From Flammeovirgaceae bacterium UBA4465 (GTDB lineage Bacteria; Bacteroidota; Bacteroidia; Cytophagales; Cyclobacteriaceae): DNA of 64,000 nucleotides. Shown in pieces: positions 1-64,000 of the stretch. The notes beneath the pieces were generated by a model. It had not been told where the DNA came from, made no database searches, and worked only from the letters and a program-made list of their open reading frames with translations. A program made the position numbers and the translations under genes. Positions within the stretch are counted from its first letter, which is position 1; the number at the start of each line of letters is the position of its first letter. The stretch spans positions 479,984-543,983 of the forward strand of contig CAJJBF010000009.1 of NCBI GenBank assembly GCA_905182375.1, in the 5' to 3' direction.

Positions 1-1228
1 TTTTGAAATTGAAGGTAATTGTAGGAATTGGATTTGAAAATACTGTCATTTTATAGCCCTCAACATCTCCATCAACGGTCTTAAAAAAAATCGAATACAC
101 ATTATCCCTACCCAAAACATTATAAATCGAAAAGGTCCAGAACGAGTGGCCCAATTTTTTTATTTTATGCGTCCCTTCTACATCAAATCCTATGTCAACT
201 CTGAAATAATCAGGAATACGAAAAGCATTTCTATTCGAATAGAGCAGGCTTTCAGCATTATTAAATTTCCACTTCCCAATGGGATATGTAACCGGCCTTC
301 CACTTGAGTAAATCAAGTTTAAGGATAAACTGTACCTTCTTGTAAATTTATAATTAGTTACCAAATTTAAATAATGTGGCTTATCATAATTAGTCTCGAA
401 AAAAGCCCCTCCATTGACCCGTTCCTCAGAAAAATTTCCATTTAAACGGATAAAACTTCGTGACCATGTATAATTGAACCAGCCTGTAAACCATCCATCA
501 GACTTTTTTGCGGACAGCTCCAATCCATAAGATTTGCCCTCTCCTTGAAGCAAATCAGTCTCAATATTTTTATTGAATTGCAAATCTGCACCTACTTTGA
601 AATCCACTAAATTCTTAATTAATTTGTAATAGCCCTCAACTGAAAACTCTAGCACATCATTTCCAAGGATGTTTTTGTAATACCCAATTGAAAATTGATC
701 CGCTATTTGGGGCACCAAATATTTACCCGACAATCTCCAAATGTCAGTAGGTGCTAATGAAGCAGAATTAATGAGCATGTGAATATATTGTCGAGACCTA
801 TTATAGCTCATCTTCAAAGAACTTAGATTTGGAAGAGAAAATCTACCCGATAATCGCAATTCAGGACCATGATAGGTAGCCATTGACGCCCCTTTTTCAT
901 ATGAAAGCGTATCAGTAATAAAATCTTTGTTTAAGGGTTTATTAAGGGCATATTGATATGATTCTGAAGGACCTAACCGGGTATATAAAGAATATCTTAA
1001 CCCTGCGTAAAGTGAAAGACTTTTTGAAGGATCATATTGATTAGAAAAATAAATTGCTGACTCTAGGGCTTGTTCGGGATTAATCTTATCATAACCAATA
1101 TCAGATAGTTCCCCCAAGGGTTCTCGAATCCCCGGATTGATCTGATATTTTTTTGTATTAGTACCAAAGTTTAAATGATTTTTATCATTCATATAATAAT
1201 AATTACAGTCCCTGCCCATTCGGAAATA
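1..1228 (-). pseudogene. TonB-dependent receptor, C-terminal beta-barrel part
   Basis: This stretch stays open on the minus strand from 1228 to base 1 and runs off the window. It reads as the C-terminal half of an outer-membrane TonB-dependent receptor barrel: YYYMNDKNHLNFG near its start (a typical barrel strand of the form nYY-np-nt-sFG), then alternating aromatic/polar strands such as SLSLYAGLRYSLYTRLGP, with PDYFRVDIGF toward the end. It has the same reading frame as the N-terminal part at 1235-2779, separated from it by two in-frame stops, TAA at 1235-1237 and TGA at 1229-1231. It is therefore the continuation of that gene, not a separate one. The true C-terminus lies outside the window. 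I infer decay, a sequence error, or a pair of compensating indels; the barrel itself looks intact. Confidence 0.8.
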
Positions 1229-1234
1229 TCATAA

Positions 1235-2779
1235 TTAATTTGAACTAAATAATTTTCCAAAACCAATATCATAGCGATATTGACTACCCGTAAGCCTCAG
1301 GGATCCATCAAAGTCATCGTTGAATTTTCGCATCCAATTTACAGAAAAGTTTGAATTAGTATAACTGAAATCAGAATAGCCAAGCAATGAGTCAGAACTC
1401 AATTGAAAACTATCAAAGCTGTAATAACTTGAAGCCGAAAGTGTATTTTTTTCATCTATTTTATGATCCAATTTAATCATCAAATCATGGAAAACAGCAT
1501 TTTGATTGCCCAGCGGAGAGTTTCTTATTTGTTTGAGTACAAAATCAGAATAAGTTGCTCTTCCCCCCAACATGAGCGATGTTTTATCTTTTATAATAGG
1601 CCCTTCAAATAAAAGACTCGAAGTGATGGGTCCTAGACCGGCTTTGACTGAATACTTTTCTTTATTGGGTTCTTTAGTCGTAATGTCAAATACAGAAGAA
1701 AGACGCCCCCCATATTTAGCTGGAATCCCTCCCTTAAAAAGTTCCATGCCCTCTAAAACCTCTGAATTAAATATAGAAAAAAATCCAAAAAAATGTGATG
1801 TGTTATATACGGTAGCTCCATCGATTGTAAAAAGATTTTGATCTGCTTTGCCCCCTCTTATATTAACCCCTGCGGCACCCTCTCCAACTGCTTGGACTCC
1901 TGAAGTTGTTATCGCTGACTTAACGATGTCCCTTTCACCCAAAAGGGTAGGCAAATTTTTAGTCTCTTCAATCCCTAACCTTGTGACCCCCATTTGGGTC
2001 TGTTGAATATTATTATCTCGATCTGACATAACCATCACCTCATTTAAAGCTATGATGTCCACATCCATCTCAATATTCATTGTCCCTTCAGAAAAGGCAA
2101 CTATATTACGATAGGTATTTTTCATCTCAATGGATTGGATTAATAAAACGTGCTCTCCTGAAGGCACATTCAACGCATAAAAACCTGAACTATCTGTAGT
2201 TGTACCTGTGAATGGCTCTTGTAAGTATACAAAAGCACCTTCTACAGGATTTTTATTATCACTCCGAATGATGTATCCCGCAATCGTTACCGTTTTGCTA
2301 GTTTCATATTTATTTCTTGACCCAATCTCAAAGATTTCGCTTTCTTTATTAACTTGATTGATCTCATTGCCTATTTCCTTTTCAAAAATCAGGCCCTTAT
2401 CAACCGGATCATATACTATTTTATCATTAAAGAATCCGCTTATCGCAAAAGTTGAAAGGATGGGTTTTTTATAGGAAAGGATAATTTCGTTGCTGTTTAT
2501 TAGATAACTAAAATCATGATTTAAAAAAAGGAGATCTAAGGCTGATTCCAAAGAAAGTTCCTTGAACTCTACAGTGATCAAAACTGTATCAATCCAATTT
2601 TGATCAAATCTAAATTTTATGTCTAGCTCATGTTCTATTTCAACTAGAACTTCATTCAATGGTGTGCCGTTGTAACTGCCATTAACTACTTCACTTGTTT
2701 GAGCAAAACAGTAGGAGGAAATCAACATAATCCAAGTTAATAAACGCCCACTCACAATCCCCAATTTTTCTTCGAACAA
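1235..2779 (-). CDS. TonB-dependent receptor, N-terminal part (interrupted)
   Basis: Outer-membrane receptor that would import a substrate using TonB energy. A signal peptide ends near residue 27 (CFAQ). An STN (secretin/TonB short N-terminal) domain spans about 33-100, a carboxypeptidase-regulatory-like beta-sandwich about 163-245 (VTIAGYIIRSDNKNPVEGAF), and the plug about 262-370 (GVNIRGGKADQNLFTIDG, then LFKGGIPAKYGGRLSSVFDI), followed by the first barrel strands. An STN domain often marks receptors that signal to an anti-sigma factor, but no sigma/FecR pair is visible here. The first 28 bp overlap the end of the upstream secreted-protein gene, so the two are probably translationally coupled. 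Translation stops at TAA 1235-1237 inside the barrel; the rest continues in the same frame at 1-1228. Without it the product could not form a full 22-strand barrel. The substrate is unknown. Confidence 0.85.
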   Translation of the reverse strand: MFEEKLGIVSGRLLTWIMLISSYCFAQTSEVVNGSYNGTPLNEVLVEIEHELDIKFRFDQNWIDTVLITVEFKELSLESALDLLFLNHDFSYLINSNEIILSYKKPILSTFAISGFFNDKIVYDPVDKGLIFEKEIGNEINQVNKESEIFEIGSRNKYETSKTVTIAGYIIRSDNKNPVEGAFVYLQEPFTGTTTDSSGFYALNVPSGEHVLLIQSIEMKNTYRNIVAFSEGTMNIEMDVDIIALNEVMVMSDRDNNIQQTQMGVTRLGIEETKNLPTLLGERDIVKSAITTSGVQAVGEGAAGVNIRGGKADQNLFTIDGATVYNTSHFFGFFSIFNSEVLEGMELFKGGIPAKYGGRLSSVFDITTKEPNKEKYSVKAGLGPITSSLLFEGPIIKDKTSLMLGGRATYSDFVLKQIRNSPLGNQNAVFHDLMIKLDHKIDEKNTLSASSYYSFDSFQLSSDSLLGYSDFSYTNSNFSVNWMRKFNDDFDGSLRLTGSQYRYDIGFGKLFSSN

Positions 2780-9948: not shown

Positions 9949-11390
9949 AAAAATGGGGTAAATAATATTAATACGGTAAAAAGCTCTAATCTACCCAATA
10001 ACATCAACAAAGAAAGTATCCATTTTCCAACGGTAGGCATATGCGCAAAATTAGCAACGGGCCCCACGGATCCGATCCCAGGCCCTACATTGCCTAGACA
10101 GGATGCGGCCGCACCCATAGCGGTCACCAAATCTACGCCTAGCAAGGCCATTCCCAAGGAACCTAAAGCAAAAATGGTCAGATATAACATGACAAAAGCA
10201 AGAATTTGAAAAGTAATTTCACCATTTACAGTCCTCCCATTGAGCCGCAAAGGCAATATGGCTGATGGATGAATTTGTCTGTTAAATTCCAAAAAGCTAT
10301 TCTTTACTAAAATTAAATGTCTGATTATTTTAATCCCCCCAGCCGTTGACCCTGCAGAAGCACCCACAAACATGAGAAAGAAAAAAAGCATGGTCAATAA
10401 AGGTGTCCAAGCCGTATAATCCTTTGTGATATATCCAGTAGTGGTGATAATTGAAACGACCTGAAAAATACTGTATCTAAACGAATCTATTAAATTTTCA
10501 TTTCCATTCATCCAGATCCCTAGCGTACAAAATATCGTGATAACCAAACAAAAAATACCATAGGTTCTGAATTCTTGATTCTGAAAGACTTTTTTTATCT
10601 TACCATGCAAACCAAAGTAAATCATGGTAAAATTAGTGCCCGCTAAAAACATGAACGTCACAATAATAAAATCTATATACGCCGAATCATAATAGGCAAT
10701 ACTGCTATTCTTCGTTGAAAATCCTCCACTAGCCATTGTCGTTAAACTGTGGTTTAATGCATCAAAAAAAGTCATATCTCCCACCATCAGGAAAATCATT
10801 TCTAATCCCGTGAAACCTATATAAATAATCCATAATCTCTTAGCGGTTTCTTTGATTCGAGGCTGAAATTTATCCGGTGAAATCCCAGGGGCTTCTGCTA
10901 CAAAAAGCTGCATACCGCCAATTCCCAAAATAGGCAATATCGCTACAGTAAGCACAATGATTCCCATACCACCTATCCATTGACTCATGCTTCTCCATAA
11001 CAAGATCCCTTTACTGACCGATTCAATATCTTCTAAAATCGTGGCCCCGGTTGTAGAAAATCCGGATAACGTTTCAAAAAATGCATCTGTGAAGTTTGTG
11101 ATCTCCCCACTCAGCATATACGGCAATGTTCCAATTAAAGACATCACCAACCAGCCAATAGTGACCACCAAATACCCTTCACGTTTACGTAATTCTTTAT
11201 TAATCGAATTACGTGTCAATAGCCACATGACCGTACCTAAAGATATGGCAATCAATGCAGATCCTAATAGAGCTCTAAAATCTTCACCTCCAAAATACCA
11301 GCTGAAAGGCAGACAAATCGACATGAAAATACCGTTGAGCACCATAAGAATGCTCATGATTTTAATGATTAATTTATAATTAAACATCAA
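9933..11390 (-). CDS. trkH: Trk-type K+ uptake channel subunit TrkH
   Basis: The membrane pore of the Trk/Ktr potassium uptake system, 485 residues as in E. coli TrkH/TrkG. It holds the four pore-loop repeats: TLSGFSTTGATIL (about 109-121), SLTTMASGGFSTKN (about 216-229), SIITTTGYIT (about 315-324) and AAASCLGNVGPGIG (about 436-449), each with the T-x-G-type selectivity element. It lies 3 bp after trkA, so gating protein and channel are co-transcribed. The genes are ordered trkA-trkH-lgt. Confidence 0.94.
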   Translation of the reverse strand: MMFNYKLIIKIMSILMVLNGIFMSICLPFSWYFGGEDFRALLGSALIAISLGTVMWLLTRNSINKELRKREGYLVVTIGWLVMSLIGTLPYMLSGEITNFTDAFFETLSGFSTTGATILEDIESVSKGILLWRSMSQWIGGMGIIVLTVAILPILGIGGMQLFVAEAPGISPDKFQPRIKETAKRLWIIYIGFTGLEMIFLMVGDMTFFDALNHSLTTMASGGFSTKNSSIAYYDSAYIDFIIVTFMFLAGTNFTMIYFGLHGKIKKVFQNQEFRTYGIFCLVITIFCTLGIWMNGNENLIDSFRYSIFQVVSIITTTGYITKDYTAWTPLLTMLFFFLMFVGASAGSTAGGIKIIRHLILVKNSFLEFNRQIHPSAILPLRLNGRTVNGEITFQILAFVMLYLTIFALGSLGMALLGVDLVTAMGAAASCLGNVGPGIGSVGPVANFAHMPTVGKWILSLLMLLGRLELFTVLILFTPFFWRKT

Positions 11391-42103: not shown

Positions 42104-42913
42104 TTAGGGATGGAAACCCACGACGATAGTTTGGTAATGCGTCTGGAAAGATTGCTTAGGCCCATAGGTTTCTAGAACAATCAAATAACTCCCCACTTGG
42201 ACCGGCCGGCCAGCGGCATCTGTTCCATCCCAAATCACTACACCAGCATAGTCTAATAAACTGTTTTGAAATAGCTGTTTAATCAATCTTCCACGATGAT
42301 CATAGATCATCAGATTTCCATAAGTCCCCGAAAGATTCATTTGATAGAAAATACTACCAAATGAATCCTAGGCAGTAGTACGGGATCCTGGGATAAAAAC
42401 TTTAGGCGCTACTCGTAATGAGGTAGAGCCCATAGAAGAACTCCTGAACTGACTGTTTTGATAGCCTGGAGTGGCAAAATTCGAGGTACTGGCAGCAGAA
42501 TACCAATTCCCCAAAATACTTCCTGACATTTCCGGTGACAATTGTTCTAACGAGATCCCTTCAGTACTGGCAAGTAAAGAGGAATGCAGTTCATCTCCGT
42601 AATTCATGATATCGATCAAGGTATCACGCCGTAAAAAAAGCATCTCCCCTTCATTGGGCATGATAGGTAAGGCAAATTCAAATAACGTATTCAAAGATGT
42701 TTGCGGAAATTCTAAAAGATATTTTAAGGTGTCAGATGTGAGTAAAATGTAGGCAAATGGTTCTATTATGATTCCAAAGGGTAGCATTACCTCCTCATTG
42801 CCATTGCCGATACGCAATCCATTGAGTGACATGTACCTGCCAGTATGATTATAAAGTTCTAAAAAATCTACCCCGCCCGGAACGGGATCGTACAAAATTT
42901 CATTGATGACCAA
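42104..42913 (-). pseudogene. Lamin-tail-domain surface protein remnant
   Basis: The frame reads a lamin tail domain (VINEILYDPVPGGVDFLELYNHT at the very 5' end; core DFLELYNHTGRYMSLNGLRI), a linker, then an FlgD-like/gliding-associated C-terminal sandwich (MIYDHRGRLIKQLF; IWDGTDAAGRPVQVGSYLIVLE). TAG at 42368-42370 interrupts it in frame between PGSRTTA and DSFGSIFYQ. The 5' end is also missing: the first usable codon is TTG at 42913, with TGA directly upstream and no coding sequence beyond. Intact relatives in Cytophagales are long secreted proteins, often T9SS cargo. I infer a decayed gene; the domain calls are from motif style. Confidence 0.7.
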
Positions 42914-60784: not shown

Positions 60785-61621
60785 TTAATTCTCCCATAAA
60801 TTACTCTCGAACTCCATCAATTCCATCTCAGCTTGTTGCTGTAATATCAAGGCTCTCATGGGATCCTGAGCAATTTGGTCAGCATACATCTGTCTAATAT
60901 CTAAATTCTGAGAATTAGATACCCCTATTACCGGTGCATTGAAGAGTCTCAGTTCCAATGCATCAGCTAAATTTACATGCGCCCCCGGATTTTGCTCGTT
61001 AAACCAGTATGCTCTGTCTTTATAGGGTCCTCTGAACAATTTGACAACATCATCATATCTAAAACTAGCTACCTTTTTTTCAAATTGAATTTCATAATTT
61101 GGATTGGCAGGAATACCTATGGTGAGCGCCCTGATGTAATAATACATTCTTGATCTCATACGATCAAAAATAAGATCCTCTCTAATATATATCTTATTAA
61201 ATTCAGTCGGATCAATATCACCATAATTTTTCCCATCACCCTCAGTCTCCTCTTCTGCCTCATCTCCAAAACCACCCCCAAAACCGAAATCATCTCCTCC
61301 ACCTTGAATCTCATATTGCAGCGCCGATATGAATTCATCATCAGGCATTGGTCGCAAACATGAATCAGACATATAGGGCTGGAGCAATCCATCTTTGGCT
61401 CCTTGAATCATCAAGGCCGACAGCTCCGAATTTTTTGAATTAAATGGTTGATTTTGTCTTTGTGTCAGGTTTAATCTCCTAAACAGCGTTTTTTTCCAAA
61501 AAATGTGAATAGGATCAACCTCTGGTTTGATTATCTCAGTTGCCGCCACTGGTGGCTCCACTCGTTGTGCCTGGACTTCCACAAGATATATGAGTCAAAA
61601 ACTAAATAACAATTTTTTCAT
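60785..61621 (-). CDS. gldN: Gliding/T9SS protein GldN, signal peptide interrupted by TGA
   Basis: Periplasmic ring component of the type IX secretion system. The intended start is ATG at 61621, overlapping the gldM end by 20 bp: codons read MKKLLFSF, TGA (61595-61597), then LIYLVEVQAQRVEPP. Except for that stop it is a textbook signal peptide. The only rescue start is GTG at 61582, which yields 265 residues lacking the signal, so the product would stay in the cytoplasm. The mature part keeps GldN features (DPIHIFWKKTLFRRLNLTQRQN; FNKIYIREDLIFDRMRSRMYYYIRAL) and ends with a helical tail. A glycine/acid-rich insert lies at about 98-124. Order is gldL-gldM-gldN. Confidence 0.85.
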
Positions 61622-63281
61622 CTTTCTTAATTTTTAAATCTATTTTAACGGGAATTGACATACTTCGATTGTATGCATTGAAATTTTCAACATTCCCTTT
61701 AAAATTTTGTCTTTTCACCTGCTTGAATTCTAATACCAATATATCTCCCTTGCGGGCCGAAGAAGCAATGGCAGATAAGTTTAATTTACCGCTTCCTTTA
61801 ACGCTCTGTCTACCTATCCCTCCACTCACCAATGTAGCCACGATTTGAGACACTTGAAATTTAGCATCATCCGGCAAAAACTCCTTAAATCCTGCATCTG
61901 GAATTGCTCTTATAGACAATCTCGCCGTTTTTGCAGGAATTCCTTTAGAAACATCAACTTCTCCGCGATCCGAAAAAGCCTTAATTTCAACCGCTGGGAT
62001 AGGTCTTACGCCAAAAGTTCTTGAACCAATTCTATTGCCATTACTAGAAACGCTCAAAACCACTTCTTTTGATTTGGGTACTATCGTCACCGCACCTGCA
62101 GTGGCTCCTTTAATCGTAGATCCTCCTTTCGCAGAAAATGTCGGATTGTAGGTAGTTCCTAACGCAGGTACTTGAACATCTAACTTATTTCCACAGTTGA
62201 AATAAAGTGCCCCTACCGACGCCGATTGAATCTGAATGACCGGCTTCATCACGAAATACTCTTCAGTACTTGAATAAGTGGTATCTCCCCCACCGGGTAA
62301 ATCAATAGTTATGGCTGCTTCGAAGGTTTGACGCTTTTGCATTTCTTTTCCTGCAAACTTTGCCGAGGCTGTAAACTCTACTAATCCCACGCCACCTTCA
62401 ACTGCTATCGGTTTTCCGTTATAAGTCATCGTAGGAACAATTGCTGAAGCAGAGGCTGCAATAAACATCTCCGCCTTATAGGATGTTCCAGCCGCAACAT
62501 ACTTCGACTCAGGCCTTACCATGGCCACAATCTGGTCAAAGGCAATATCGCCCGCTCCCACTTTTGTTGATAAGAAGGCCATCGCTCGTGTTTCATAGCT
62601 CAAAACCTTTGACTGAAAGTCAGCAACAGTAGCTAGACAAGCAGGAGTAGGTGAATCAGAAAAAGCGAGCTGTGCAAAAACCTTACCGGCTTGATTAGGA
62701 TCTTTATTGTAAACAGGATCGTCAATGGCATCTACGGCAATTGCTTTATATTTCAAAAGTTCTGATTCTGGCGCACCAAATTCATCCATAATAGATTTAA
62801 TCTCCTCAGCAAAACCATTTAATTGATCCTTTATCTCTTGACCTTTACCTTGACCTCCTTCTTCTACGGGCATCATATAATGTCCCACCTTACTGTAGTC
62901 TGTTTTACCTGCCAAATTTTTAGCATCGCCCACATAGGTGGGTTCATACTCAATATAGCCCCCAGTAATGGCAACCATCGTGTCCTTGAGCGCAACCATT
63001 TTTGTCATTAAAGCATCCGTTTTCTCATGAACTAATTTAGCCGCTTCCATGACCTTTAAATCTGCCTCTCGGTTACCTGTCTCATCCACAGTCCTGACAA
63101 TGCTCTCCATTATCTGCACGTTTCTCTCTTTGGTTTCATTATTTGCACTTACCAAACTTTCATTAATAAAGACGAATTTATCAATAATGGTATTACTCAC
63201 ATTTAGCGCCAATAAAGCAGTCAGCACTAAATACATCATACCGACCATTTTTTGACGTCCTGTTTCTTTCCCTCCTGACAT
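61602..63281 (-). CDS. gldM: Gliding motility/T9SS protein GldM
   Basis: A single-span inner-membrane protein that transmits the proton-driven rotation to the periplasmic T9SS. 559 residues: a cytoplasmic start RQKMVGMMYLVLTALLALNVSNTI (helix about 10-34), then a large periplasmic part with an alpha-helical D1 and beta-rich D2-D4 (GDTTYSSTEEYFVMKPVIQIQSASVGALYFNCGN; RTFGVRPIPAVEI). The N-terminal G-R-Q-K-M-x-x-M-M-Y-L-V-L-T motif is diagnostic. It is followed by gldN. Confidence 0.95.
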   Translation of the reverse strand: MSGGKETGRQKMVGMMYLVLTALLALNVSNTIIDKFVFINESLVSANNETKERNVQIMESIVRTVDETGNREADLKVMEAAKLVHEKTDALMTKMVALKDTMVAITGGYIEYEPTYVGDAKNLAGKTDYSKVGHYMMPVEEGGQGKGQEIKDQLNGFAEEIKSIMDEFGAPESELLKYKAIAVDAIDDPVYNKDPNQAGKVFAQLAFSDSPTPACLATVADFQSKVLSYETRAMAFLSTKVGAGDIAFDQIVAMVRPESKYVAAGTSYKAEMFIAASASAIVPTMTYNGKPIAVEGGVGLVEFTASAKFAGKEMQKRQTFEAAITIDLPGGGDTTYSSTEEYFVMKPVIQIQSASVGALYFNCGNKLDVQVPALGTTYNPTFSAKGGSTIKGATAGAVTIVPKSKEVVLSVSSNGNRIGSRTFGVRPIPAVEIKAFSDRGEVDVSKGIPAKTARLSIRAIPDAGFKEFLPDDAKFQVSQIVATLVSGGIGRQSVKGSGKLNLSAIASSARKGDILVLEFKQVKRQNFKGNVENFNAYNRSMSIPVKIDLKIKKDEKIVI

Positions 63282-63320: not shown

Positions 63321-64000
63321 TCAACTTTTCATGGCAGTCAACATGCCGCCATAGACTTTATTTAAATTCTCAACATTAGAAGTTAATTGATTCAACTGTA
63401 CTTGAAAAGCTGCCGTCTCTTTGCCCGCTTCTGCCATACTTTCTAACGCATCTGTAACATTAGAATAAAATTTATTCAATGCTTTGGTATGACTTTGAGA
63501 ATCTTGAAGCTCCATTTCATACAAGGCGTTCAAAGCACTCAAACTTTTCGTAACCGTCAATACTTGCTCTTGGTAACCCTTTGCTCCCTTAGATGCTTCT
63601 GACATTGCTCCCAATGCTTGCATGGACGTACCGTAGGATTTATTCATTTCGGTAAGCGTTTTCGATGCTGATCGCATATTGTCAGCATATTCATTGGTAG
63701 CCACCGCGGCATCGCTGAGATTTGACATTTTACCTGCCGTGTCTGCAAGATTTCTCATACCATCACCTAAACCCTTTAATAAGTCAGGTCCAATTTTAGC
63801 ATCCTCCATAACTTTGTCCATCTGGGCTGAAATTCCTGTGGAGACCGCTGCTGGTGCAGCCGCTCTTTTTGGTGACACAGGACCATCATAATCAAGCGCA
63901 AGTTCAGGATAAACCTTTGACCACTCAGGATCAGGATGTGGCGGCTCAAAAGCACTTAAAAAGAAAATGACCGCTTCAACAGTCAATCCCACACCTAGCA
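63321..64000 (-). CDS. gldL: Gliding motility/T9SS protein GldL, partial
   Basis: The C-terminal part of GldL, truncated by the window edge: VGLTVEAVIFFLSAFEPPHPDPEW is the end of the second membrane helix and the start of the cytoplasmic part, followed by a helical coiled-coil domain (DNMRSASKTLTEMNKSYGTSMQALGAM). GldL drives rotation with GldM as the proton motor. The first helix and start are off the window. Confidence 0.9.
   Translation of the reverse strand, partial: LGVGLTVEAVIFFLSAFEPPHPDPEWSKVYPELALDYDGPVSPKRAAAPAAVSTGISAQMDKVMEDAKIGPDLLKGLGDGMRNLADTAGKMSNLSDAAVATNEYADNMRSASKTLTEMNKSYGTSMQALGAMSEASKGAKGYQEQVLTVTKSLSALNALYEMELQDSQSHTKALNKFYSNVTDALESMAEAGKETAAFQVQLNQLTSNVENLNKVYGGMLTAMKS

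Follow-up and report, generated by a model that had tools for sequence, protein, structure and literature searches.

The gldN gene in the assembled genome of Flammeovirgaceae bacterium UBA4465 (G000) is interrupted by an in-frame TGA in the region for the signal peptide, and we consider it very probable that this TGA is an error of the assembled consensus and not a stop in the living cell. In the window (the whole 64,000-nucleotide stretch that was analysed), gldN lies on the minus strand; it starts with an ATG at 61621-61619, meets the TGA at 61597-61595, and is then open to a TAA ending at 60785. The N-terminal translation of the assembled gene is MKKLLFSF*LIYLVEVQAQRVEPP..., with the interruption itself reading MKKLLFSF-TGA-LIYLVEVQAQ. 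A sequence-only reading of this DNA had reported a TGA in the gldN signal region and an intact remainder, and both are real in the sequence. The gene name it gave is likewise supported, by matches to TIGR03523 (101.5 bits, cut-off 85.9) and PF19841 (179.7 bits, cut-off 23, E 9.2e-53).

GldN/PorN is a subunit of the T9SS ring. The G000 gene resembles it in that the mature protein matches both models and in its placement, in the order gldL-gldM-gldN on the minus strand. It differs in its N terminus, where the TGA interrupts the Sec signal peptide of the assembled copy, whereas this region is open in all eight relatives that have the gene. We conclude that the missing Sec signal is probably a property of the assembled copy rather than of the organism. 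Only one gldN match was obtained in the whole G000 genome, and the idea of a backup copy was therefore rejected.

The features considered here, all on the minus strand of the window, are as follows.

60785..61621, minus strand: gldN as the congeners frame it, interrupted at codon 9
61595..61597, minus strand: in-frame TGA in the signal-peptide region, which is a net 3 bases shorter than in G003, G005 and G008
60785..61582, minus strand: open 265-codon gldN remainder from a GTG, with no signal peptide
61602..63281, minus strand: gldM, running 13 codons past its conserved end and overlapping the gldN ATG by 20 bases
61645..61656, minus strand: site of a +1 insertion in gldM (~61647-61653, depending on the reference), where the allele of G007 and that of G001/G002 are superposed
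63321..63998, minus strand: gldL, open and reaching the window edge
1180..1290, minus strand: TonB-receptor-like gene with a comparable indel cluster, TAA and TGA inside

The gldM/gldN junction among congeners

Ten genomes of the same genus were compared, G000 included. gldN is present in nine of them (8/9 without G000), and the one genome with no match, G009, is 67% complete. The signal region in G003, G005 and G008 is MKKLLFSFYVLVILVEVQAQ or MKKLLFSFYLLVILMEVQAQ. Compared with these three, the window lacks one codon (3 bases) of the signal region and shows differences at several adjacent bases, so that the earlier description of an otherwise perfect signal peptide was too generous.

A second change, overlooked by the sequence-only reading, lies 56 bases upstream of the gldN lesion, where gldM carries a +1 insertion in its last codons, at ~61653. 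GldM ends in SIPLK* in seven of the eight relatives and in SIPFN* in the other. In the window, the insertion displaces the gldM stop by 13 codons, to 61604-61602, which creates the overlap with the gldN ATG. The picture of one damaged codon in a sound locus is thus contradicted by the 3-base shortfall, by the gldM frameshift, and by the surrounding 243 kb, which is full of broken genes whose counterparts in relatives are whole. A GldM-GldN fusion was also considered and dropped on inspection by eye, since more than one frame change would be needed.

Along the 18 kb next to gldN, from 46 to 64 kb of the window, comparison with G005 and G008 yielded no window-specific coding frameshift except the one in gldM, and the damage in G000 is therefore patchy. 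In G003, gldN has a one-base frameshift of its own farther in, consisting of one extra A within an A run.

Broken genes and a possible real loss

We probed G000:C9:340001-582792 (~243 kb, window included) with proteins from the intact ORFs of relatives. These tallies omit stops 20 or fewer codons from the protein ends, and the gldN stop is accordingly not among the 12 or 22 broken genes given here. Genes broken inside numbered 12/90 with G007 proteins and 22/162 with G003 proteins, and 4/26, 1/26 and 4/40 with those of G005, G008 and G004, respectively. In the reverse test with G000 proteins, no broken gene was found in G007 (0/95), G008 (0/27), G004 (0/41) or G001 (0/35), and the single one in G005 (1/27) is beside Ns in that assembly. 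Lesions are thus frequent in G000 and rare in these relatives (12/90 versus 0/95 in the reverse test), as expected of consensus error. When G003 was probed with G000 proteins, 23/169 genes were broken, and G003 proteins revealed 1/89 in G007. G000 and G003, with 20 and 10 contigs, have the fewest contigs among the compared assemblies and many broken genes, whereas the others have few; G007, which is clean, has 50 contigs.

The many genes broken outside the window on this part of the contig include those for sulfatases, for a TonB receptor and a MoxR-type ATPase, and for GH97, a GDSL lipase and a protein of the alpha-amylase family. One of the 12 (1997 aa in G007) is broken in G003 and G008 as well and may represent real divergence. 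Beside this large gene, at window 42344-42910, the alignments with G003 and with G008 stop, again possibly through real divergence.

In G003, rpoC is split between two frames (G003:C3:200029-204194). Because no living cell could tolerate this split, the error class is demonstrated for G003, and such damage, seen both in an indispensable gene and in the gldN of that assembly, counts in favour of an artefact. In G000, by contrast, all four long conserved genes that were checked (rpoC, dnaE, sprA and prfB) are intact, against ~2 lesions expected over their combined length at the G000 broken-gene rate. Their integrity also fits a real decay of dispensable genes, and together with the clean 18 kb it counts against an artefact, as does the fact that the gldN lesion is not an allele union (see below).

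These observations give some room to a real loss, in which the nonsense change in the signal region of gldN and the frameshift in gldM would both be true, and recent enough to have left the rest of gldN unspoilt, and T9SS and gliding would be impaired. The two changes sit 56 bases apart in one junction beside 18 kb otherwise clean in coding frames, and no lesion was found in the long conserved genes of G000 that were checked. Such a loss would also be survivable: in the portion of PMC8444969 that deals with these genes, F. johnsoniae gldN and gldNO mutants are described as defective in gliding-linked traits and biofilm, the gldN mutants failing to glide and the gldNO deletion abolishing biofilm. 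A real stop would make the organism a naturally occurring T9SS mutant that has retained its cargo. Nevertheless, we regard a real loss as unlikely. It would need 12/90 genes of the stretch to be broken too, which is difficult to reconcile with 0/95 in the reverse G007 test, and the state of gldN and of the secretion system argues against it. The dN/dS of gldN, from a first set of three genomes only, is ~0.06 against G005 and ~0.10 against G008, compared with 0.07 between G005 and G008, and gldN is under purifying selection. SprA is open in G000, and the number of matches to the T9SS sorting domain (TIGR04183) is normal, with 17 in G000 and 20, 18, 21 and 20 in G003, G005, G007 and G008, respectively. 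We counted purifying selection, retained cargo and open SprA in favour of an artefact. None of dN/dS, cargo counts or TGA usage suggests a lineage that is abandoning T9SS or recoding TGA.

Lesion shape and a possible origin

Many of the lesions are single-base indels in genes that otherwise share 94-99.5% identity with their reference gene. At several +1 sites, G003 has one allele and G007 another, and G000 has both side by side. Eight sites were tested, all of them coding +1 insertions at which every available reference is exactly one base shorter (other insertion groups were excluded and uncounted). Five of the eight equal the union of two congener alleles, compared to 285/4000 random insertions (binomial P 8e-5). 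Random insertions pass this test in 3.3% of cases with two references and in 7.1% with three. The remaining three are not unions.

The gldM insertion, which was run apart from the eight sites and with a null covering more than coding sequence, is the union of the allele in G007 with the one in G001/G002; with 7 references, 16% of random insertions pass. Thus, insertions in G000 superpose alleles of related strains at five of the eight sites and at gldM, as consensus error would have it. The gldN lesion is compound and not a simple allele union, and its exact bases cannot be derived from the available alleles. The three non-union insertions and the 16% random pass rate for gldM were counted against an artefact. 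Random homopolymer error as the sole cause was rejected, as the sequence contexts of the lesions are mostly not long homopolymers. The TonB-receptor-like gene at window 1180-1290 lacks 8 bases at one place and 4 at another, net in frame, with a TAA and a TGA between them; this lesion is compound and resembles that of gldN.

The union pattern suggests that G000 is a consensus over reads from several co-occurring strains, probably long reads, judging from the contig counts of G000 and G003. We infer both this merging of strains and a shared cause for the gldN stop. Where strains differ at adjacent bases, a substitution could appear in the alignment as one inserted and one deleted base; bases would then be retained in the consensus or lost from it, and reading frames broken. 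The junction between gldM and gldN is highly variable among the congeners, as are the codons of the signal peptide, which would make them a likely place for such an error. The outcome there would be a gldM with one base too many and, 56 bases away, a gldN with three bases too few and a TGA. The organism itself would have an ordinary Sec-exported GldN and a working T9SS.

Comparable false frameshifts and stops are known from collapsed or long-read assemblies, as presented in parts of PMC8445201, PMC8302730 and PMC10877868, and the likeness lies in the many single-base indels in conserved genes and in the two-allele insertions. A passage of PMC8445201 describes how adjacent allelic variants misalign reads, so that a collapsed assembly acquires indels and its ORFs are cut short; that case concerned two alleles in a diploid, whereas here the alleles would belong to strains in a community. 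A long-read assembler is reported in a section of PMC8302730 to merge close strains into one consensus, with indels among the chief sources of frameshifts in what it puts out before polishing. In a portion of PMC10877868, which deals with spring-bloom marine metagenomes and names the clade UBA4465, marine PacBio data were given a frameshift-tolerant gene caller because of more frameshifts. The gldN site, as a compound change, is unlike the single indels described in these portions of the literature on collapsed and long-read assemblies.

As biology, the gldN stop probably matters little. Its use is as a caution: calls of a broken essential gene in a single copy from metagenome assemblies of few contigs require a check against congeners. 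In addition, the allele-superposition test offers a simple, read-free way to separate merged-strain insertions from real ones.

Consequences if the stop were real, and possible read-through

Given a real stop, the only readable product starts at the GTG at 61582. It runs open for 265 codons to 60785, without a signal peptide or a hydrophobic stretch; the best 8-residue mean hydrophobicity at its start is 1.4 versus 2.9-3.3 in the congeners. The sequence-only reading had held that a real stop would abolish GldN export unless the TGA is read through. Loss of the Sec signal would indeed follow from a real stop, while the proviso of read-through found no support.

The position of this GTG, 17 bases beyond the moved gldM stop and at the head of a full 265-codon frame, could allow translation to restart after gldM and produce a GldN that is functional, or exported, without a Sec signal. 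We consider this very improbable, given the lack of a hydrophobic segment at the GTG start, and no relative has such an arrangement. Moreover, in a part of PMC4980022 the homologue PorN is described as periplasmic with PorK, and stable PorK, PorL and PorM as needing PorN. It is, at best, very improbable that this is a marine Cyclobacteriaceae lineage truly without a GldN export signal, with gldN still selected, T9SS cargo kept and the GldM tail lying over the gldN start; if it were true, the ring would be built from leaderless GldN delivered some other way.

Read-through or recoding of the TGA, to which the frame open on both sides and a plausible hydrophobic continuation might point, can be dismissed almost entirely, as TGA terminates 42/195 ORFs of at least 120 codons on the stretch, the RF2 gene (prfB) is present and intact, a genome-wide search for tRNA-Sec, the one suppressor tRNA covered, gave no match at the Rfam gathering score (best 43.9 versus 47, the same value in G007), the broken genes bear TAA, TAG and TGA alike, and neither the 3-base shortfall nor gldM would be mended by it. 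Two other stops in the window, at 9993 (TAG) and 19173 (TGA), were set aside as start-site artefacts; both fall no more than 16 codons into ORFs of G003, and they are shared by G007.
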